Positions 16,767 through 26,441 of a DNA stretch of 64,000 nt are shown here, piece after piece. The translations under genes were made by a program, and so were the position numbers. The stretch covers positions 1 through 64,000 of the forward strand of contig JAAYEC010000075.1 of NCBI GenBank assembly GCA_012728915.1, in the 5' to 3' direction. Every line of letters begins with the position of its first letter. Position 1 is the stretch's first letter. The notes under the pieces were generated by a model. The model had not been told where the DNA came from. It saw nothing but the letters and a program-made list of their open reading frames with translations, and ran no database searches. The stretch is from Deltaproteobacteria bacterium (lineage in GTDB: Bacteria; Desulfobacterota; Syntrophia; Syntrophales; UBA2192).

Positions 16767-17714
16767 TCACCTCCTCAGGCCTGCGTCCAGGTCCTTGCCC
16801 TCCGGCTTCGGGGGGAGGTTTCCCTTGATGAGCGGGTTCTTCTCCAGGGACTTGACGACGCGGTTGATCTCGTCGACCCCGTCCCGGACCTCCCGGATAC
16901 CGCGCTGCGTCGCCCGGATCAGGGCGGGCACATCGCGACTCCCCTTCTCGAGGTTGGCCGTGATCTCCCGGATCTTCTCCATGCTTTCCTTCAGGTTCTC
17001 CGTGACCCCGGGGGTGGCACCCTCGAGATTCTTCAACACGTTGTCCAGCCGCTCCATGGACGTGTTCACCCGGTCGATGAGCTCATCCGACCGCAGCAGC
17101 TGCCCGACCGTTCCCTTGCCCTCCTTGAGATCGTTGGTGACGAGCTCCACGTTCCTCAGGTTCTTCTCGATGGCGTTGAGGGAGCCGAAGAGGGGCCCCT
17201 CGGGGTCGCGCAGCTCGTCGATGATGTCGGCCAGGTTGCGGATCGTCTCCGTCAGGCGCTTGGCCGTCTCCTCCACCTCGTACTCGGCCAGCACCTCCGA
17301 GAGGGTCCGTTTCTCCTCGGACTTGACCGTCCCTCCCGGTTCGACGAGCCGGCTCTCGGGCTTTCCGGGGCGGACGGCCACGTACTCGGATCCGATGAAG
17401 GTGGGGCTCTCGACGGTCACCACCGTGTCCTCCCGGAACCGCGTGTGGTACTCCTCGAAGATCGAGAGCCGGACCCGGACGGCGTCCCCGACGAGCGACA
17501 CGCTCCGCACCTTCCCGATGTCGGCCTTGTAGAGCTTCACGGGGGATCCCGGCGCGAGGTTGTAGTTCTCCTTGAACTGCGCGTAGTAGGTCACCGTCGG
17601 CCGGAACCAGTCCTTGCCCCGCCCGATGAGGACGACGGAGCCCACCATGAGGGAAAGGACGGCGATGATGAAGATGCCGACCGCCCGGTCCATCCTGCTG
17701 AATTTCAGTTCCAT
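16767..17714 (-). CDS. MCE/MlaD-type substrate-binding protein
   Basis: 315 residues. One N-terminal membrane helix (VGIFIIAVLSLMVGSVVLIG, about 12-31) is followed by an MCE domain (YYAQFKENYNLAPGSPVKLYKADIGKV...SPTFIGSEYVAV, about 40-115) and a long helical C-terminal region (140-290) of repeated amphipathic segments. MCE proteins form hexameric rings or tubes that carry phospholipids between membranes. It lies between the degenerate ATPase gene and the TPR lipoprotein gene. Confidence 0.92.
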   Translation of the reverse strand: MELKFSRMDRAVGIFIIAVLSLMVGSVVLIGRGKDWFRPTVTYYAQFKENYNLAPGSPVKLYKADIGKVRSVSLVGDAVRVRLSIFEEYHTRFREDTVVTVESPTFIGSEYVAVRPGKPESRLVEPGGTVKSEEKRTLSEVLAEYEVEETAKRLTETIRNLADIIDELRDPEGPLFGSLNAIEKNLRNVELVTNDLKEGKGTVGQLLRSDELIDRVNTSMERLDNVLKNLEGATPGVTENLKESMEKIREITANLEKGSRDVPALIRATQRGIREVRDGVDEINRVVKSLEKNPLIKGNLPPKPEGKDLDAGLRR

Positions 17715-17738
17715 GTGCTCCTCGCAGCGGGGCGGCGC

Positions 17739-18404
17739 TCAGACGACCTGCACGACGCCGTCCCGGATATAGATGTCTCTCTTCTTGAACAGACGGTCGT
17801 ACTGCGTCAGCCCGGCATAGTAGACGCAGGGGATGCCCGCATCGATCATCTTCCGGGTCATCTCGATGTAGAGCTCGACGGCCGGGCGGGCAAGTGCGAC
17901 GAAGGCCTGCTCGATGAGGTAGGCCTCGGCCCCCTTCGTCATCTCCCGGACGATGATCGCCGCCCGCACGTCCTCCGGCGCGACCTGCGCGGGACGGAGG
18001 TCGAGCTTTTCCTCGATCCCCAGGAGACGGCACAGGGACATCTCCTCGTCGCCCAGGGTCAGATCCAGGCTGTTTTCGTAGTAGTAGCGCGAAAGCAGCA
18101 GATTGGTCCGGAGCGTCCGGTTGCCGATCAGGGCCGCATCGACCCCCATGTAGCCGATCTTCCTCCGAACGGCGAGAAGCCGCCGGGGCTTGAGAAAATC
18201 CAGTTCCTCGCCGTCGAACAGGTACAGGCCCTCTTCCGGCGGCTCCAGGGTCGCCAGTGCCCGCAGGAAAAGGTGCGCGTCGTCGATCCGGTCGGCGTGG
18301 AGGCTGAAGGCATCGCCCTGCGAAAGGGAGAAGGAGAATTTCCTCAGGCCCTTCCCCCGGCCTGTCGGGGCGTGCGCGTAGTCTCGGAGTTCGATGAGCG
18401 CCAT
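17739..18404 (-). CDS. Degenerate MlaF-like ABC ATPase lacking nucleotide-binding motifs
   Basis: 221 residues with overall similarity to an ABC ATP-binding subunit: MALIELRDYAHAP at the start, LATLEPPEEGLYLFDGEELDFL, RRKIGYMGVDAALIGNRTLRTNLLL and a C-terminal YIRDGVVQVV. But the Walker A position reads FSLHADRIDDAHLF with no GxxGxGKS/T, the signature position reads VAPEDVRAA instead of LSGGQ-like, and the Walker B position reads AEAYLIEQAF with no DE pair. It therefore should not hydrolyse ATP. It lies between mlaE- and mlaD-type genes, exactly where MlaF belongs, 6 bp after mlaE. It may be a structural remnant, with an active ATPase encoded elsewhere. Confidence 0.8.
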   Translation of the reverse strand: MALIELRDYAHAPTGRGKGLRKFSFSLSQGDAFSLHADRIDDAHLFLRALATLEPPEEGLYLFDGEELDFLKPRRLLAVRRKIGYMGVDAALIGNRTLRTNLLLSRYYYENSLDLTLGDEEMSLCRLLGIEEKLDLRPAQVAPEDVRAAIIVREMTKGAEAYLIEQAFVALARPAVELYIEMTRKMIDAGIPCVYYAGLTQYDRLFKKRDIYIRDGVVQVV

Positions 18405-18410
18405 ACCCAC

Positions 18411-19187
18411 CTACAGGAAAAAGGCGGCAAAGAGCGCGAAGTTCACCGCCAGGCAGTAGAAGAGGCACGCCACGGCCCCCCTCGACGTCGCCACGGGGAC
18501 CTCCGTGATCCCCCTCCGGACGGCGAGGCCGTAGTGCAGCGAGATCACGGTGATGCCCACGCCGAAAAAGAGGGCCTTCAGCGCCACCACGGCGATGTCG
18601 ACCCCTTCGATGGCCTTCCCGATCTGCGCAAGGAAGTTCTGCAGCGGCAGGGTCGTCAGCACCCAGGCGATGGCGTACCCTCCCAGCACGGAGGTGATGC
18701 AGAAAATGGTGATCAGGCAGAAGAGGGAGACCGTGATGCCGATCAGCCGGGGTACGAACAGGACGTCCAGGGGGTCCACGCCCTGGAGTTCCAGGGCCTC
18801 GATCTCGCGGAGGACCTTCATGTAGCCCGTCTCGATCGTCACCGCCGTCGCCGACCGCAGGATGACCACCAGGGCCGTGACGAGGGGACCGAACTCCCGG
18901 ATCAGCAGGGCCACGGTGACCTTGCCCAGGTCATGCTGGGCGGCCACGCCCGAGAGCTGGAGGATCATCATGCTGCCGAGCAGCAGCGAGATGGGGATCA
19001 CGATCCACAGCGCCTCGACGGCCGTGAAGTAGATCTGCTCGACGACGATCCGGAGTCTCAGCCGGCGGCCGGCCCTGGGGTTGAGGACGACCTGGCGCAG
19101 GATGCGGTAGAACAGCGCGGACTGGTCCGCGTATCGGTTCAACCGGTCCGCGGTCTGCCTGCCCAGATATCCCACGTAATCCCGCAC
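18411..19187 (-). CDS. mlaE: MlaE-type ABC permease
   Basis: 258 residues with five to six membrane helices. GPLVTALVVILRSATAVTIE (GPLLTALIxAGRVGAAxAAE-like) and LEIALELQGVDPLDVLFVPR-type sequence (EIEALELQGVDPLDVLFVPR) match the MlaE family. It forms the inner membrane core of the phospholipid transporter. The start is GTG at 19187 with GGGAGG 8 nt upstream. A promoter at 19234-19262 precedes it, so this is the first gene of the operon. One family feature is altered: the usual GRxGAA in the coupling loop reads LRSATAV. Confidence 0.9.
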   Translation of the reverse strand: MRDYVGYLGRQTADRLNRYADQSALFYRILRQVVLNPRAGRRLRLRIVVEQIYFTAVEALWIVIPISLLLGSMMILQLSGVAAQHDLGKVTVALLIREFGPLVTALVVILRSATAVTIETGYMKVLREIEALELQGVDPLDVLFVPRLIGITVSLFCLITIFCITSVLGGYAIAWVLTTLPLQNFLAQIGKAIEGVDIAVVALKALFFGVGITVISLHYGLAVRRGITEVPVATSRGAVACLFYCLAVNFALFAAFFL

Positions 19188-19394: not shown

Positions 19395-20465
19395 TCAGGG
19401 CTCGAGAATGTACTTGACGACGAGATCCCCCACCTCCCGCGTACCGTGACCCATCCTGCCGGCGTCCATGCTCTTCATGTCGTCGCGGATGACCTTCTTC
19501 ACGGCATCGAGCAGGACCCCTGCGGCGGTCGCCTCGCCGAGGAACTCGAGCATCATCTGGACGGAGCAGATGGCCGCGAGCGGGTTGATCCGGTTCGTGC
19601 CCGCGTATTTCGGGGCCGAGCCGCCGATGGGCTCGAAGATCGCCGTCTGGCCCGGGTCGGGATTGATGTTGCCCCCCGCGGCAATCCCCATGCCGCCCTG
19701 GATCATCGCGCCCAGGTCGGTGATGACGTCTCCGAACATGTTGTCCGTCACGATGACGTCGAAGAACTCGGGGTTCTTCACCATCCACATGCAGATCGCG
19801 TCCACGTGGGCGTAATCGGTCTTGACGTCGGGGTATTCCTTGGCCACCTCGTAGTAGACCCTCTCCCAGAGGTTCCAGGCATAGGTGAGGACGTTGGTCT
19901 TGCCGCAGAGGGTGAGCTTCTTCTGCCGGTTTCGCCTGCGGCAGTACTCGAAGGCGTACCGGATGCAGCGCTCGACGCCCTTGCGGGTGTTCACCGACTC
20001 CTGCACGGCCACTTCCCCCGCCGTGCCCTTGCGCAGGAACCCCCCGCTGCCGGCGTAGAGCCCCTCCGTGTTCTCCCGCACGACGACGAAGTCGATGTCC
20101 TCGGGGCCCTTGTCCTTGAGCGGCGTGTAGACCCCGGGCAGCAGGACCACGGGCCTCAGGTTGATGTAGAGGTCGAGCTCGAAGCGCATCTTCAGGAGGA
20201 TCTCCGTCTCGAGGATCCCCGGCCGGACGCCCGGATGGCCGATGGCGCCGAGCAGCGAGGCGTCCATGGCGCGAAGCTCCGACAGCACGGAGTCCGGCAG
20301 AAGGTCACCCTTGGCCAGGTAGCGCTCCCCGCCGATGTCGTAACGGGTCAAATGGAATTCGATCCCCTCGGCATCGGAAATGGCCTTGAGGGCCTTGAGG
20401 GCCTCGGCGACGACTTCGGGTCCCGTGCCGTCGCCGGGCAGCACGCCGATGTTGTAGGTTTTCAT
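19395..20465 (-). CDS. leuB: 3-isopropylmalate/3-methylmalate dehydrogenase
   Basis: 356 residues, usual for LeuB. MKTYNIGVLPGDGTGPEVVAEA is the N-terminal motif, RENTEGLYAGSGG the substrate loop, and DNMFGDVITDLGAMIQGGMG plus EPIGGSAPKYAGTNRINP the metal and NAD-binding regions. It oxidatively decarboxylates 3-isopropylmalate; in the citramalate route it acts on erythro-3-methylmalate to give 2-oxobutyrate. It is the last gene of cimA-leuC-leuD-leuB, 42 bp after leuD, followed by a terminator. The Ile-codon leader in front of cimA suggests that isoleucine precursor formation is the main regulated use. Confidence 0.93.
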   Translation of the reverse strand: MKTYNIGVLPGDGTGPEVVAEALKALKAISDAEGIEFHLTRYDIGGERYLAKGDLLPDSVLSELRAMDASLLGAIGHPGVRPGILETEILLKMRFELDLYINLRPVVLLPGVYTPLKDKGPEDIDFVVVRENTEGLYAGSGGFLRKGTAGEVAVQESVNTRKGVERCIRYAFEYCRRRNRQKKLTLCGKTNVLTYAWNLWERVYYEVAKEYPDVKTDYAHVDAICMWMVKNPEFFDVIVTDNMFGDVITDLGAMIQGGMGIAAGGNINPDPGQTAIFEPIGGSAPKYAGTNRINPLAAICSVQMMLEFLGEATAAGVLLDAVKKVIRDDMKSMDAGRMGHGTREVGDLVVKYILEP

Positions 20466-20507: not shown

Positions 20508-21008
20508 TCACCGGGCGGCGAGCTTTTCCTTCCGGATGTACTCGACGAGCCCGCCCTGCCGGATGAGCTGCTCCATGAACGGCGGGATCGGGCGGGTGCT
20601 GTAGGACTTGCCGCGGGTGAGGTTCTCGATGCGGCCCGCGGCGAGATCGACGGCAAGCCGGTCGCCGTCCCGGATGTCGTCGACGGCCTCGGCCGACTCC
20701 AGGAGCGGCAGGCCGATGTTGAAGGCGTTGCGGTAAAAGATCCGGGCGAAGCTCTTCGCGATGATGAGCGGCACCCCCGCCGCTCTGATCGCAATCGGCG
20801 CGTGCTCCCGCGAGGAGCCGCACCCGAAGTTCCGTCCCCCGACGACGACATCGCCTGCGGAGACGGAGGAGGCGAACTCGGGCCGCCCGTCGGCAAAGAC
20901 GTGTTTCGCCAGGGCGGCCCCGTCGGAGACGTTGCAGTACCGCGCCGCGATGATCATGTCCGTGTCCACGTCATCGCCGAACTTCCAGGCTCTTCCTTCA
21001 TATTTCAT
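20508..21008 (-). CDS. leuD: Isopropylmalate/citramalate isomerase small subunit
   Basis: 166 residues, the short single-domain form. Begins MKYEGRAWKFGDDVDTDMIIAARY and contains GGRNFGCGSSREHAP, the aconitase swivel-domain signature. Pairs with LeuC to move the hydroxyl of citramalate or isopropylmalate. Separated from leuC by a 135-bp spacer that carries a simple-sequence inverted repeat. Confidence 0.95.
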   Translation of the reverse strand: MKYEGRAWKFGDDVDTDMIIAARYCNVSDGAALAKHVFADGRPEFASSVSAGDVVVGGRNFGCGSSREHAPIAIRAAGVPLIIAKSFARIFYRNAFNIGLPLLESAEAVDDIRDGDRLAVDLAAGRIENLTRGKSYSTRPIPPFMEQLIRQGGLVEYIRKEKLAAR

Positions 21009-21143: not shown

Positions 21144-22403
21144 CTATAGTTCCTCAGGGGAACCGATTCTGCCTAACACCGCCGACGCCGCCGCGACGGA
21201 CGGGTTGCACAGATACACCTCGCTCTTCGGGTGTCCCATGCGGCCCACGAAATTTCGGTTCGTCGTGGCCAGCGCCCGCTCGCCCGAGGCGAGGATCCCC
21301 ATGTGTCCGCCCAGGCAGGGCCCGCAGCAGGGGGGGCCGACAACGGCCCCGGCCTCGAGGAAGGTCTCGACGAGCCCCTCCCTCGTGGCATCCTTCAGGA
21401 TCGTGGGGGACGCGGGGATGACAATGAGGCGCAGACCCTTCGCCTTCTTACGGCCCTTCAGGATCTTCGCCGCGTCGCGCAGGTCCTCGAGCCAGCCGTT
21501 GGTGCAGGACCCGATAAAGACCTGGTCCAGGGCGATGCCCTTCGCCTCTGAGACGGGGCGCACGTTCGCAGGCGACGGGGGAAAGGCAACCTGGGGCTCG
21601 AGGTCCGTTGCGTCGATCGTGATGACCTTCTCGTATTTCGCGCCGGCATCGCTGGCGAGCCAGAGGGGTTCCCACCGTGCCCGACCCTTGACATAGGCCT
21701 TCGTCGTCTCGTCGGGCGCGATGATGCCGTTTTTCGCCCCCGCCTCGATCGCCATGTTCGCCATGGCGAACCGGTGCGGCATGGAGAGCTTCCCGACGAC
21801 GTCCCCGCAGAACTCGAGCGCCGCGTACAGCGCCCCTTCCACGCCGATCTCGCCGATGAGCCGCAGGATCAGGTCCTTGCCGCCCACCAGCGGCCGCAGG
21901 GTCCCCGTGAACTCGACGCGGATCGTCGGAGGGACGCGCAGCCAGGTCTCGCCCGTGGCCATCACGGCGGCAAAGTCGGTGCTCCCCACGCCGGTGGAGA
22001 AGGCCCCCAGGGCCCCGTAGGCGCAGGTGTGGCTGTCGGCCCCGATGACGAGCTGACCGGGCACGACGAGCCCCTGCTCCGGAAGGAGCACGTGGCCGAT
22101 GCCGGCCTCGCCGACCTCGTAGTACAGCTCGAGGTCCTGCTCGCGGGCGAACTCGCGCATGAGCTTGGCCTGCTCGGCCGAGGCGATGTCCTTGTTCGGC
22201 ACGAAGTGATCCGCCACGAGGGCGACCCGCCTGCGGTCGAAGACCTTCGGGGCGCCGATCTGCCTGAACACCTGGATGGCGATGGGGGCCGTGAAATCGT
22301 GGGCGAAGGCGAGATCCACCCTGGCCTCGACGAGGTCTCCGGGGGCGACGCTCTCGAGCCCCGCATGCCGGGCAAGAATTTTCTCCGTAATCGTCATGGG
22401 CAT
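21144..22403 (-). CDS. leuC: Isopropylmalate/citramalate isomerase large subunit
   Basis: 419 residues, the shorter LeuC type often paired with a 165-residue LeuD. TITEKILARHAG at the start, GADSHTCAYGALGAFSTGVGSTD, SCTNGWLEDLRDAAK and CCGPCLGGHMG supply the three cluster-binding cysteines of the aconitase fold. With LeuD it isomerises citramalate to 3-methylmalate and isopropylmalate likewise. The start at 22403 has GGAGA about 8 nt upstream; Met at 22397 is an alternative. A 220-bp spacer with hairpins separates it from cimA. Confidence 0.95.
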   Translation of the reverse strand: MPMTITEKILARHAGLESVAPGDLVEARVDLAFAHDFTAPIAIQVFRQIGAPKVFDRRRVALVADHFVPNKDIASAEQAKLMREFAREQDLELYYEVGEAGIGHVLLPEQGLVVPGQLVIGADSHTCAYGALGAFSTGVGSTDFAAVMATGETWLRVPPTIRVEFTGTLRPLVGGKDLILRLIGEIGVEGALYAALEFCGDVVGKLSMPHRFAMANMAIEAGAKNGIIAPDETTKAYVKGRARWEPLWLASDAGAKYEKVITIDATDLEPQVAFPPSPANVRPVSEAKGIALDQVFIGSCTNGWLEDLRDAAKILKGRKKAKGLRLIVIPASPTILKDATREGLVETFLEAGAVVGPPCCGPCLGGHMGILASGERALATTNRNFVGRMGHPKSEVYLCNPSVAAASAVLGRIGSPEEL

Positions 22404-22437
22404 GGTTCATTCTCCGCTTGTCTGCTCGATATGGAAG

Positions 22438-22462
22438 CCGGAGCCTTTTCGAGAGGCTCCGG
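22438..22462. repeat. Perfect 8-bp hairpin upstream of leuC
   Basis: CCGGAGCC and GGCTCCGG flank 9 nt, about 35 bp before the leuC start. No U-run follows on the minus strand, so it is more likely an RNA processing or stability hairpin than a terminator. Confidence 0.5.
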
Positions 22463-22480
22463 TTGCTGTGCATGAACCGC

Positions 22481-22565
22481 GGAACTGAGGAAAAGCGGAA
22501 GATCGGATCAAAGGCTATGGTCCTTTCCGCGCGTCCGAGGTTCTGCTCTTCCGCTCTTCACCTCC
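22481..22565. repeat. Inverted repeat of GCGGAAGA/TCTTCCGC units
   Basis: GGAAAAGCGGAAGATCGGAT (left, ending 22508) faces GTTCTGCTCTTCCGCTCTTC (right, about 22540-22560). The same strings occur at 125-180. It lies in the cimA-leuC spacer. Confidence 0.6.
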
Positions 22566-22623
22566 GCAAGGCGGAAATCAAGCGCCCTGTTTTCCGTGCC
22601 GGGGCGCCTCCGCTCGTCCGTCT

Positions 22624-24234
22624 CTAAGCGACGGCCTTCCGCGCTTCCTTTCCGTTCCGGTTCAGCCTGTCCTTGCTCAGCTTGTACTGGATGCTGTCCA
22701 CCAGCGCATGCCAGCTCGCTTCGATAACGCTCTCGGAGACCCCGATCGTGCTCCAGATATCCTTGTCGTCGCGCGACTCGATGAAGACGCGAACCTTGGC
22801 AGCCGTCCCCTCGCTGCCCTCGAGGATGCTCACCTTGAAGTCGGTCAGGTGCATTCGGGCCAGCTCGGGGTAGAACTTCACGAGGGCCTTGCGCAGGGCG
22901 TTGTCCAGGGCGTTGATCGGGCCGTTGCCCTCGGCAGCGGTGATCTCGGCATCCTTGCCCACGATGACCTTGATGAGGGCCTGCGAGCGGGAGGGCTCGT
23001 TGCCCTGCTTTTCGTTTATAACACGGAAGCACTCCAGATAGAAGGGCTCTTCGAACTCGCCCGTGGCCTTCCGGATGATGAGGGCCAGCGACCCGTCGGC
23101 GGCCTCGAAGCTGTACCCCTCGTTCTCCATGCGCTTGATCTCCTCGACGATGCGGCGGCTCTTCGCGTCGTCCCCGCCCAGGGAGAGGCCCATCTCGGCC
23201 GCCTTGTACTCGATGTTGCTCTTGCCGGAGAGATCCGAGACGAGGACACGCCTCTTGTTGCCCACGACCTCGGGGGAGAGATGTTCATAGGCCGCGGGGT
23301 TCTTGAGCACGGCGTGCACGTGGACGCCGCCCTTGTGAGCAAAGGCGCTGCGTCCGACGAAGGGCCGCGAGTTCAGCGGGGTGATGTTGGCGATCTCGCC
23401 GACGAAGAGCGACAGGCGGGTGAGCTCCTTCAGGGCGCCCTCGGGGAGGCAGCGTTTTGCCATCTTGAGCTCCAGGTTGGCCATGATCGGCACGAGATCC
23501 GCATTGCCGCAGCGCTCCCCGTAGCCGTTGACGGTCCCCTGGACCATGCGGACGCCCTTTTCGACGGCAGCCAGCGAGTTGGCCACGGCAAGCCCCCCGT
23601 CGTTGTGGGCGTGGATGCCCAGGCGCTCCCGCGGGATCCGGGAGGCCACCTCGTCCACGACGCGGGCGATCTCCGAGGGCAGGGTCCCGCCGTTGGTGTC
23701 GCATAGCACGACGAGGTCGGCGCCGCTCGCAAAGGCCGCCTCGATCGTCTGCAGGGCGTAGCGGGGGTTCGCCCGGTAGCCGTCGAAAAAGTGTTCGGCG
23801 TCGTAGATGACCTCCTTCTTCTTCGCCTTGAGCCAGGCCACCGTCTCGCCGATCATGGAGAGGTTCTCCTTCATGGAGATCTTGAGGATCTCCCTGACGT
23901 GCAGGTCCCAGCTCTTGCCGAAGATGGTCACCACCGGGGTCTGCGCCTCGAGCAGGGCCTGGACGTTCGGGCACTCGGCGCAGGGCGTGTGGGCCCGCCG
24001 CGTGCTGCCGAAGGCCGAGAGACGCGCGGTTGTGAACTTCACCTTCCGGGCCAGCTCGAAGAAGCGCATGTCCTTCGGGTTCGAGCCGGGCCAGCCGCCC
24101 TCGATGTAGGCAATCCCGAACTCGTCGAGTCGCCTGGCCACGCGGAGCTTCTCCTCGGCCGTGAAGTTCACCTGCTCTCCCTGGGTGCCGTCCCGCAGGG
24201 TCGTGTCGTAGATGAGAACTGTCCTGTCGTCCAT
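22624..24234 (-). CDS. cimA: (R)-citramalate synthase
   Basis: 536 residues. An N-terminal TIM barrel of the HMG-CoA lyase-like type has DTTLRDGTQGEQVNFTAEEK (substrate loop) and GIHAHNDGGLAVANSL (metal His). A C-terminal LeuA allosteric domain (about 395-520) has SRSQALIKVIVGK and LTDFKVSILEGSEGTAAKV. The length and the GTQGEQVNF motif fit the CimA-type group rather than classical LeuA. It condenses pyruvate with acetyl-CoA, the first step of the threonine-independent isoleucine route. The ATG at 24234 has GGGGGAAAG upstream and lies just after an attenuator hairpin; earlier in-frame ATGs lie in the hairpin. The upstream Ile-rich leader supports the isoleucine assignment. Confidence 0.93.
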   Translation of the reverse strand: MDDRTVLIYDTTLRDGTQGEQVNFTAEEKLRVARRLDEFGIAYIEGGWPGSNPKDMRFFELARKVKFTTARLSAFGSTRRAHTPCAECPNVQALLEAQTPVVTIFGKSWDLHVREILKISMKENLSMIGETVAWLKAKKKEVIYDAEHFFDGYRANPRYALQTIEAAFASGADLVVLCDTNGGTLPSEIARVVDEVASRIPRERLGIHAHNDGGLAVANSLAAVEKGVRMVQGTVNGYGERCGNADLVPIMANLELKMAKRCLPEGALKELTRLSLFVGEIANITPLNSRPFVGRSAFAHKGGVHVHAVLKNPAAYEHLSPEVVGNKRRVLVSDLSGKSNIEYKAAEMGLSLGGDDAKSRRIVEEIKRMENEGYSFEAADGSLALIIRKATGEFEEPFYLECFRVINEKQGNEPSRSQALIKVIVGKDAEITAAEGNGPINALDNALRKALVKFYPELARMHLTDFKVSILEGSEGTAAKVRVFIESRDDKDIWSTIGVSESVIEASWHALVDSIQYKLSKDRLNRNGKEARKAVA

Positions 24235-24251: not shown

Positions 24252-24291
24252 AAATAAAAAATCCGTTACCAGGGAGCCTGATAACGGATTT
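24252..24291 (-). terminator. Attenuator terminator in the cimA leader
   Basis: On the minus strand AAATCCGTTATCAGG pairs with CCTGGTAACGGATTT around a CTC loop (15 bp, one G-U), directly followed by a U-run. It lies between the leader peptide and cimA. Its 5' arm can alternatively pair with the leader stop-codon region. Confidence 0.9.
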
Positions 24292-24386
24292 CGTTGATTC
24301 TTCCGATTGTTGCATCAAGCCATCATCAGCCCCCTACGCCGCCCGGACGTATGCCGATTATGTCGATAATAATGGGGAGGATGATG
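24272..24386 (-). promoter_or_regulatory. Attenuator pairing segments 1, 2 and 3 of the cimA leader
   Basis: Segment 1 (24374-24386, CATCATCCTCCCC on the minus strand, inside the Ile codons) can pair with segment 2 (24320-24334, GGGGGCTGATGATGG, at the leader stop). Segment 2 can instead pair with segment 3 (24272-24284, TTATCAGGCTCCC) through about 12 pairs with one bulge, and segment 3 is the 5' arm of the terminator. Segment 1 lies within codons 6-10. A ribosome stalled on Ile codons would cover segment 1, free segment 2 and prevent the terminator. Confidence 0.75.
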
Positions 24387-24403
24387 CCGATGCTGCTCTT
24401 CAT
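24326..24403 (-). CDS. Isoleucine-rich leader peptide of the cimA operon
   Basis: 25 codons from ATG at 24401-24403 to TGA at 24326-24328. The peptide begins MKSSIGIILPIIIDIIGI and has nine Ile, one Leu and one Val; Ile codons include ATC, ATT and two ATA. It starts about 25 nt after the predicted transcription start and ends 35 nt before the attenuator terminator. This is the layout of amino-acid leader peptides such as IlvL or LeuL, and the composition points to isoleucine as the sensed residue. The ribosome-binding site is weak (TTGGA). It is too short for ordinary gene finders. Confidence 0.85.
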   Translation of the reverse strand: MKSSIGIILPIIIDIIGIRPGGVGG

Positions 24404-24434
24404 GTTGAAATCCAACCCTCTCAAAGGTGCGGTG

Positions 24435-24463
24435 AGCATAAAGCGTAGCGCTGTGTTTGTCAA
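24435..24463 (-). promoter_or_regulatory. Promoter of the cimA-leuCDB operon
   Basis: On the minus strand a perfect TTGACA (24458-24463) is 17 nt from TATGCT (24435-24440). It starts 8 bp after the stop of the upstream protease gene, so the operon has its own promoter. Confidence 0.8.
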
Positions 24464-24470
24464 CGAAAAT

Positions 24471-26441
24471 TTACCGGGGGGGAGGCCTGTCGTCTCTCCG
24501 GATGCCGCAGAGAAGGAGAGCGGCGGCACCGAGCCACCCGAGCATCCCGACGGTCTCCGCTTTCGCGCCCAGCAGGGCATCGCTTGCATCCGCAAGGGGG
24601 GTGAGCATCGCTCTCGTGCCGGCTCGCAGGCTCTCGTCCGCGGCGATGAGATCGGCCAGAGAGGGTGAAAGCGCGTAGTAGAGCCCCACGAAGGCCCTGC
24701 CCGAGGTGGAGGGCAGCAGGTAGGCGTCGCGGAATCCCCGCAGCGCCACCACGCGCGGCTCGAGCGCCGAGCCGAAGGCCGCCGTGGCGATGAAGCACCC
24801 GCCGCCTCCCCCGCCGCCGCCGCTGCCGCCCGATACGGCCGGTCCGACGGTGGTGAAGGTCCATGCGCTCGAGGAGGCAAGCGCCACCCCCTCGCTGTCC
24901 TGCACGGCACTCGTCAGCGTCGCCGTGTAGGTCGTGCCATAAGCGAGATTCGACAACGGGGTGAAGGTGGCCGTCAGGGTGCCCCCATTGTAGGACACGG
25001 CCCCCGCGACAGGGACGCCCCCCTGCGTGAGCGTGAAGGACGAGGTCGTGATCGACGCCGCGCTCATGGTCTCGCTGAAGGTCGCCGTGACGGACGTGTC
25101 GACAGCCACATCGGCAGCTCCAGGGGTGGGGCTTCTTCCCGAGATCGTCGGCGGCACACCGGCCTGGGTCACCGCGTAGGAGTGGCCCGCGATGGTGATG
25201 GTTCCCGTCCGCTGCTTCGCCCCCGTGTTTTCGGCAACGCTGTAAGTGACCGTCCCGTTCCCCGTGCCGCTCGAGCCGCCGGTGATCGTGATCCAGGCGT
25301 TGTTGGAAACGGCGAGCCACGAACAGGTCCCGCCCGTTGTCACCGTCACGCTGCCCGTCGAGGCATCGGCGGAAACGGACGCATTCGCCGATTGAAGCGA
25401 ATACGCACAGGAGCCCGCGAACGAGACGCCCAGCGACTGAAATCGCCTTGCCGTGGTGTACGGCGGCATGGAACAGCCATAATTCATCCTCATCTTCATG
25501 CGGAACAAGCCATTCGGCCGATCTCCGCCCGAAGTGCCCCAACTGTTGAGGACGATCCAGTAGTGTTTGGCCGGATCGGCATCGTCGTCGTTGTATCCGA
25601 CAACGATGACCGCATGGCCTCCACCCTCGTCGGGTGAGTCATCGTATTCGGTTCCACAATATGTATCGGGATTCCACAATGCCATTTCGTTCTGGTTGTT
25701 CCAGAAGGTGTAAAAGGAATCCCAGGCTGCACGGTTCGGCAGATAATAGGAAAGCCATACGCCCTTTCCCTGGTTGAGGATCGCCTTGATGTTGAGTATT
25801 GCATCGTCCTGGCTGACGGAGGTCGTCGTGATCGTCTGAACAGTCAGGGTCGAGGAGAAGGCATAGTTCGTCGGGTACCGGGACACGGATCCACAGGAAC
25901 CCGAACAAATGCCGTCGTTGTCGATATACGCCGCACCCGGGTTCGACCAGGGAACGGCGAAACCCTGGCCGTTATAAAAGCTCGCAAACATGGTTAGGTT
26001 TCCACCACCACATGCACAATCGCCGGTCTTGCATGAATTCAGAAATTGGATGGATAGCCTGTCCTTGATCGAAAGTCCTGACTGGAGGGCGAGTTCCAGC
26101 AAGCCTGTCCCTGCCCATACCCAGCAGTTACCGCACATGCCTTGGTTCCGCTCGGACGGCGTATATTGGATATTGTCCAGAAGGCTCAGATAGGCACCAA
26201 GCCTCTGATCTGTCGCCATGACGAGCCCGGCCCGGACGAGTTCGTCAATGGCCGCCCTGGGCGCATTCTCGTACTCTCGCTCCCACCTCTCCAAGGTCTT
26301 GGCATCAGGGCGCATGACGGGAGGTCGCGGCTTCGGACTTCCCTGGGAGAACGCGCTGGACGCATAACCCACGGCAAGGGCCAGGGACAGAAGAAGAGTC
26401 AAGCCGGTTCGGGTCTTTCTCATGGGGTCAGTCCTGCGCAT
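24471..26441 (-). CDS. Secreted papain-like cysteine protease with BACON, Ig-like and CFI-box C-terminal domains
   Basis: 656 residues counted from 26441; Met at 26423 is an equally good start. A signal peptide (about 11-32, ending SSAFSQ) is followed by a C1A protease domain: [13 protein letters not shown] holds catalytic Cys106, [13 protein letters not shown] the His and [12 protein letters not shown] the Asn. Then come a BACON-like domain ([17 protein letters not shown], about 355-425) and a bacterial Ig-like domain ([20 protein letters not shown] to WTFTT). The tail has a poly-Gly stretch, [13 protein letters not shown], a helical segment, a hydrophobic helix ([15 protein letters not shown]) and a basic end. 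This matches the CFI-box C-terminal domain seen on secreted proteins, presumably a sorting or anchoring signal. Substrates are unknown. Confidence 0.88.

Follow-up and report, generated by a model that had tools for sequence, protein, structure and literature searches.

The window, the whole 64,000-nucleotide stretch of DNA analyzed, carries a cimA-leuCDB operon that is preceded by a short leader. All features described for this locus lie on the minus strand. The first operon gene, cimA (22624-24234), encodes a citramalate synthase of 536 amino acids. The protein scores 719 bits against TIGR00977 (cut-off 450) and far under the cut-offs of all leuA profiles. The large subunit of an isopropylmalate/citramalate isomerase is encoded by leuC (21144-22403; TIGR02083, 636 bits) and the small subunit by leuD (20508-21008). 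LeuD obtains its top score with TIGR02084 (223 bits), yet remains below the cut-off of this profile; it passes the cut-off of TIGR02087 with 202 bits. An isopropylmalate/methylmalate-type dehydrogenase is encoded by leuB (19395-20465; NF002898, 512 bits). MlaE-, ATPase- and MlaD-like genes (16767-19187) are located on the same strand about 200 nt past leuB. No tRNA genes were found in the 64-kb window.

The gap between cimA and leuC (22404-22623) varies in length from 100 to 280 nt within the genus. In the window, the gap ends in an inverted repeat that is perfect and lies near 22457-22432 (CCGGAGCC...GGCTCCGG). A second control element at this position was considered and rejected, as the repeat lacks a U-run and the gap shows no conservation within the genus. 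In two relatives with a cimA-leuCDB arrangement (loci L001/L215 and L085; genomes G007 and G046), leuC is split into two matches by a frameshift or an assembly error. One contig (G082, C269, 3061-6276) holds two identical copies of cimA with their flanks in opposite orientation, probably a palindromic assembly artefact.

The product of the gene upstream of the leader (24471-26441) resembles a secreted protease of the papain type that carries Ig/BACON-like repeats and, ahead of a motif of ten residues, a Gly-rich linker. A few bases past the stop codon of this gene begins a sigma-70-type promoter (24435-24463), detected by promoter scan and with its box conserved in the host order. The -35 element TTGACA (24463-24458) is separated by 17 nt from the -10 element TATGCT, which ends at 24435. 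A transcript start near 24428 is predicted from the promoter position. Two promoter-like sites were detected between 19000 and 24700, compared with an average of 0.4 in shuffled sequences, and the leader promoter is the better one. It is followed by a conserved Ile-rich open reading frame (24325-24402) for a predicted leader peptide, MKSSIGIILPIIIDIIGIRPGGVGG, comprising 25 codons with nine Ile and only one Leu.

Between 24463 and 24252, three mutually exclusive pairings are available to the RNA: a protector, an antiterminator and a U-tailed terminator. Promoter, leader reading frame, terminator with U-run and alternative pairings are all located where an earlier note on this DNA had placed them; two details require correction. 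Region 1 (24374-24386), the 5' arm of the protector, pairs with region 2 (24320-24334) as described, with a duplex energy of -20.9 kcal/mol. It had been set within the Ile codons; it covers leader codons 6-10, which include two Ile, and the bulk of the Ile codons (11-18) is situated between regions 1 and 2. Region 2 can pair instead with region 3 (24272-24292), which provides the 5' terminator arm and, in its part 24284-24272, the 3' arm of the antiterminator. This second duplex has an energy of -26.4 kcal/mol. Region 4 and the U-run occupy 24252-24273, with the 3' arm of the terminator at 24273-24258 and the U-run at 24261-24252. The terminator stem (24292-24258) is present, and the terminator scan assigns it 16 pairs, not 15, with a loop of 3 nt and -21.8 kcal/mol. 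It is the sole minus-strand terminator detected between 19000 and 24700. Folding of the leader RNA, a check proposed in the earlier note, gave a z-score of -3.2 for the whole leader against shuffled sequences. The assignment of regions 2 to 4 draws in addition on covariation, described below.

The leader stop codon UGA (24327-24325) is located inside region 2; in relatives, it occurs within or just after this region. With a simulated ribosome at the stop codon, the terminator was the only fold left. A simulated stall on the Ile run, with the RNA stopped at 24262, yielded the antiterminator as best fold. The proposed mechanism presumes transcription from the leader promoter, translation of the leader and a response to isoleucine. 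With plentiful isoleucine, the ribosome would proceed to the leader stop codon, located inside region 2, or regions 1 and 2 of free RNA would pair. Region 3 would then pair with region 4, and transcription would end before cimA. With scarce isoleucyl-tRNA, the ribosome would stall on the Ile run and occupy region 1, leaving region 2 free. The 2:3 pairing would form before region 4 is made, the terminator would be blocked, and cimA-leuCDB would be transcribed.

Pathway served by leuCDB

The host genome (G000) is a draft in 81 contigs with an estimated completeness of 100%. CimA is present, and no biosynthetic threonine deaminase (IlvA) was found over the cut-off of TIGR01127 (best score, 62 bits), the combination expected of a citramalate-dependent isoleucine pathway. 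A single LeuC is encoded; the only other match, with 34% identity, is to a stretch of an aconitase-sized protein of 680 residues. There is no LeuA-type protein among the PF00682 matches of the host genome, and the only proteins matched by TIGR00973 are CimA and a short, 305-residue one. Isopropylmalate synthase (LeuA) was not found in the whole genomes G000, G003 and G005, though ilvB and ilvD are present. The nearly closed genome G005 (5 contigs, 100% complete) gives the same picture as the host genome. Two LeuA genes were readily detected in G006, which belongs to the same genus.

LeuCDB-type enzymes commonly take the substrates of both the leucine and the isoleucine pathways. The attenuation may be real and the single leuCDB may serve leucine too, if CimA, a homolog of LeuA, or an unrecognised enzyme makes isopropylmalate. 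The draft state of the genome, in 81 contigs, also speaks for this reading. Such a double function is unlikely: LeuA was not found in G000, G003 or G005, yet two copies were found in G006, CimA matches its own profile and stays far under the leuA cut-offs, and the leader has a single Leu codon. A single LeuC, no detectable LeuA or IlvA, and a control by Ile only make isoleucine synthesis the most likely duty of the host LeuCDB. The earlier note had proposed isoleucine as the main duty of these enzymes, and the genome searches strengthen the proposal. The pathway behind the Ile leader in the host appears to be the citramalate pathway alone.

Conservation and covariation of the leader

Loci were gathered with a cimA protein query from 100 related genomes and a public genome set. 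The earlier note had called for the same leader and for compensatory changes in relatives, and both are found. Among the 80 complete loci from the host order, 76 show an Ile-rich leader ahead of cimA, defined by four or more Ile in 12 codons, together with a U-tailed terminator. At least five Ile in 12 codons occur in 68 of the 80 loci, compared with 1.5 in dinucleotide shuffles. Each of the other residues reaches this threshold in at most seven loci. Reverse-strand Ile-rich reading frames were counted in 18 loci, above the shuffles and far under 68. A TTGACA/G box is present upstream of 72 of the 76 leaders (about six expected). The conserved triple consists of region 2 (CCUGAURAUGG-like), region 3 (CCGUUAUCAGG) and region 4, with a spacing of mostly 30-40 nt between regions 2 and 3. 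A covariance model of the element found it in 108 of 119 host-order genomes, with one match in the host genome; the relative G041 has the leader at locus L102.

Covariation was evaluated on 74 aligned leaders. In the 3:4 terminator, 93.8% of the cells are paired and 61 cells are two-sided; the covariation score is 0.252 versus 0.148 in shuffled alignments and at most 0.115 in slid versions. In the 2:3 antiterminator, 91.2% of the cells are paired, a percentage leaning towards structure because the pairing to region 3 served to place region 2 in every locus, and 38 cells are two-sided. Its score of 0.223 lies above all shuffles (0.174) and slid versions (at most 0.150), though pairs that change on both sides are no more numerous than in the shuffles (90/500). 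The 1:2 protector is clear in the host sequence and shows a weak trend across relatives (mean z, -1.1).

A hairpin retained without the Ile codons had been named as evidence against the attenuator. Loci L163 and L201 keep the hairpin with a weaker Ile content. In L176, the leader is lost and the terminator lies directly behind a promoter; in L188, recognisable leader and hairpin are both lost. G006 has a further, more distant cimA (L213), and an Ile leader is missing there. At L366 (G091, contig C29), a reverse-complement reading frame (219-302) represents a second copy of an Ile leader (MNTITIRHIIIISNIIISVHIGGLVLV). The gene behind it gave no match to the branched-chain queries and may be a further isoleucine-regulated gene.

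The codon AUA accounts for one of 145 Ile codons in seven neighbouring genes versus two of nine in the host leader. Within the genus, the proportions are 8/40 in leaders and 2/111 in cimA. Rare AUA codons would raise the sensitivity of stalling.

About 24 nt separate the end of the hairpin from the start of cimA (ATG at 24234), and leader reading frames are able to act through translation. A translational control, in which the hairpin hides the ribosome-binding site of cimA until opened by leader translation, is nevertheless very improbable. A U-run stands at the hairpin end in nearly all relatives, and the distance to cimA is variable: in seven loci (L085, L086, L098, L183, L191, L193 and L206), the hairpin lies 100-200 nt upstream and so cannot cover the start site. 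Sequestration of the Shine-Dalgarno sequence was rejected on these grounds.

T-boxes control isoleucine genes in Gram-positive bacteria. Direct binding of tRNA-Ile or a metabolite by a T-box or another RNA sensor, alongside an incidental reading frame, is scarcely credible here. No family of Rfam 15, including the T-box model, matches the window or the relatives, and a T-box or known riboswitch was rejected on this result. Conservation concerns the residues of the leader, which switch with the pathway, and not a large fold. The reading frame as a chance product of AU-rich RNA, with the hairpin as constitutive terminator of gene 24471-26441, would suit the hairpin's position downstream of this gene and the Ile-rich frames on the reverse strand, yet it is hardly tenable in view of the shuffle counts, which exclude a chance frame, the promoter between gene and hairpin, and the conserved region 2.

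The element is very probably a ribosome-mediated leader-peptide transcription attenuator of cimA-leuCDB that reads the supply of charged isoleucyl-tRNA. The parts, their exclusivity, the order-wide conservation, the covariation and the match between leader residues and pathway, on which this assignment is based, are all visible at the sequence level.

Leader residues, operon content and known attenuators

The codons of the leader appear to track the gene content of the operon. Leaders of cimA alone or of cimA-leuCDB in the host order contain Ile only. A leuA gene 18-68 nt after cimA (L003, L172, L190 and L194) goes with a Leu run in the leader, IIIISGLLIG. At distances of 276-517 nt, a Leu run is missing from the cimA leader, and the gap between the two genes holds its own promoter-like box and mostly its own Leu-rich leader. 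Outside the host order, leaders of cimA-leuA-leuCD-ilvB operons encode Ile, then Leu, then Val (IIVIISATGILLPLLLLVVVGLK). At L295, where leuA is in the operon and no ilvB was found, the leader has Ile and Leu without Val. In leaders of cimA-ilvD-ilvB operons, Ile and Val are accompanied by a short Leu pair.

Among 57 distinct leaders, a Leu run is present in 13 of 13 with leuA in the operon versus 8 of 44 without (Fisher p about 8e-8). Val occurs in 8 of 10 leaders with ilvB/D and in 4 of 47 without (Fisher p about 1e-5); both p-values ignore relatedness, and the leader and operon thresholds behind the counts were chosen after the data had been seen. Three loci outside the host order (L293, L297 and L298) have a Leu run though leuA is not nearby.

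Separate leuA operons in the host order are preceded by Leu-run leaders, e.g. LLPLILGLALLRLLLKAARPSFLGHH, in 17 of 20 loci examined. The ilvB operon in the host genus has Val-run leaders such as MIRQIISSFLVVVVVVIVQAGTAARTL. In the host genome, the leader upstream of ilvB (contig C6, L242, about 1235-1357) is rich in Val (PVVVVVVIVQAG), and two U-tailed hairpins come after it, suggesting that the valine and isoleucine operons are each controlled by a residue-specific attenuator of their own. Among second matches of the covariance model, ilvB is the next gene in 18 of 20 examined, mostly with leaders containing Ile and/or Val.

The enterobacterial operons ilvGMEDA (ilvL), leuABCD (leuL) and ilvBN (ivbL) are controlled by leader-peptide attenuators. 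The comparison with IlvL/LeuL-type leaders drawn in the earlier note fits in every feature that can be tested by sequence. Shared are a short reading frame rich in codons of the end product, three exclusive pairings, a U-tailed terminator and a stop codon within region 2. The cimA leader differs in its target, a citramalate synthase, and in Ile as the sole enriched branched-chain residue. No sequence relation to the enterobacterial leaders was found (no Rfam match), and the mechanisms are compared by anatomy only.

In Actinobacteria, branched-chain attenuators are located upstream of ilvB and leuA (PMC1262725). They resemble the cimA leader: their reading frames contain Ile, Val and Leu codon runs and overlap terminators, and complementary triples at the base of their switch are conserved. 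They belong to another phylum and to other genes, and citramalate is absent from the paper. A comparative catalogue of proteobacterial leader-peptide attenuators of amino-acid operons is cited therein (Vitreschak et al., 2004). In Staphylococcus aureus, a leucine-rich attenuator peptide of the ilv-leu operon is reported to repress branched-chain synthesis (PMC5794164). That peptide is also rich in one branched-chain residue, which is Leu instead of Ile; it stems from a Firmicute and acts with CodY. The main text of Naville and Gautheret (2010; PMC2965389) mentions neither cimA, leuA nor isoleucine.

The open-access literature searched yielded no report of an attenuator in front of a citramalate-synthase operon, an absence that is weak evidence. 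Within this literature and Rfam, the earlier statement that Ile attenuation of such an operon is little described holds. The mechanism is classical ribosome-mediated attenuation and hence not a new kind of system. New, as far as checked, are citramalate synthase as target, the order-wide conservation, and leader codons that follow the operon content. The leaders apparently form a so far undescribed family, spread over the whole order, of attenuators by which isoleucine would control the citramalate pathway. The loci provide a natural series in which leader codons appear to change with the genes of the operon. With this series, the rule that attenuators match their end product becomes testable by comparison, and regulation can serve to read what LeuCDB-type enzymes do in uncultured bacteria.

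Across Desulfobacterota, the cimA leader may well be a re-writable regulatory head, in which Leu and Val runs are gained or lost as leuA, leuCD and ilvB join or leave the operon; this is rather more probable than its opposite. In the host genus, leuA would be gone and leuCDB would have become a dedicated isoleucine module. If true, enzymes annotated as leucine enzymes (leuCDB) belong to isoleucine synthesis.
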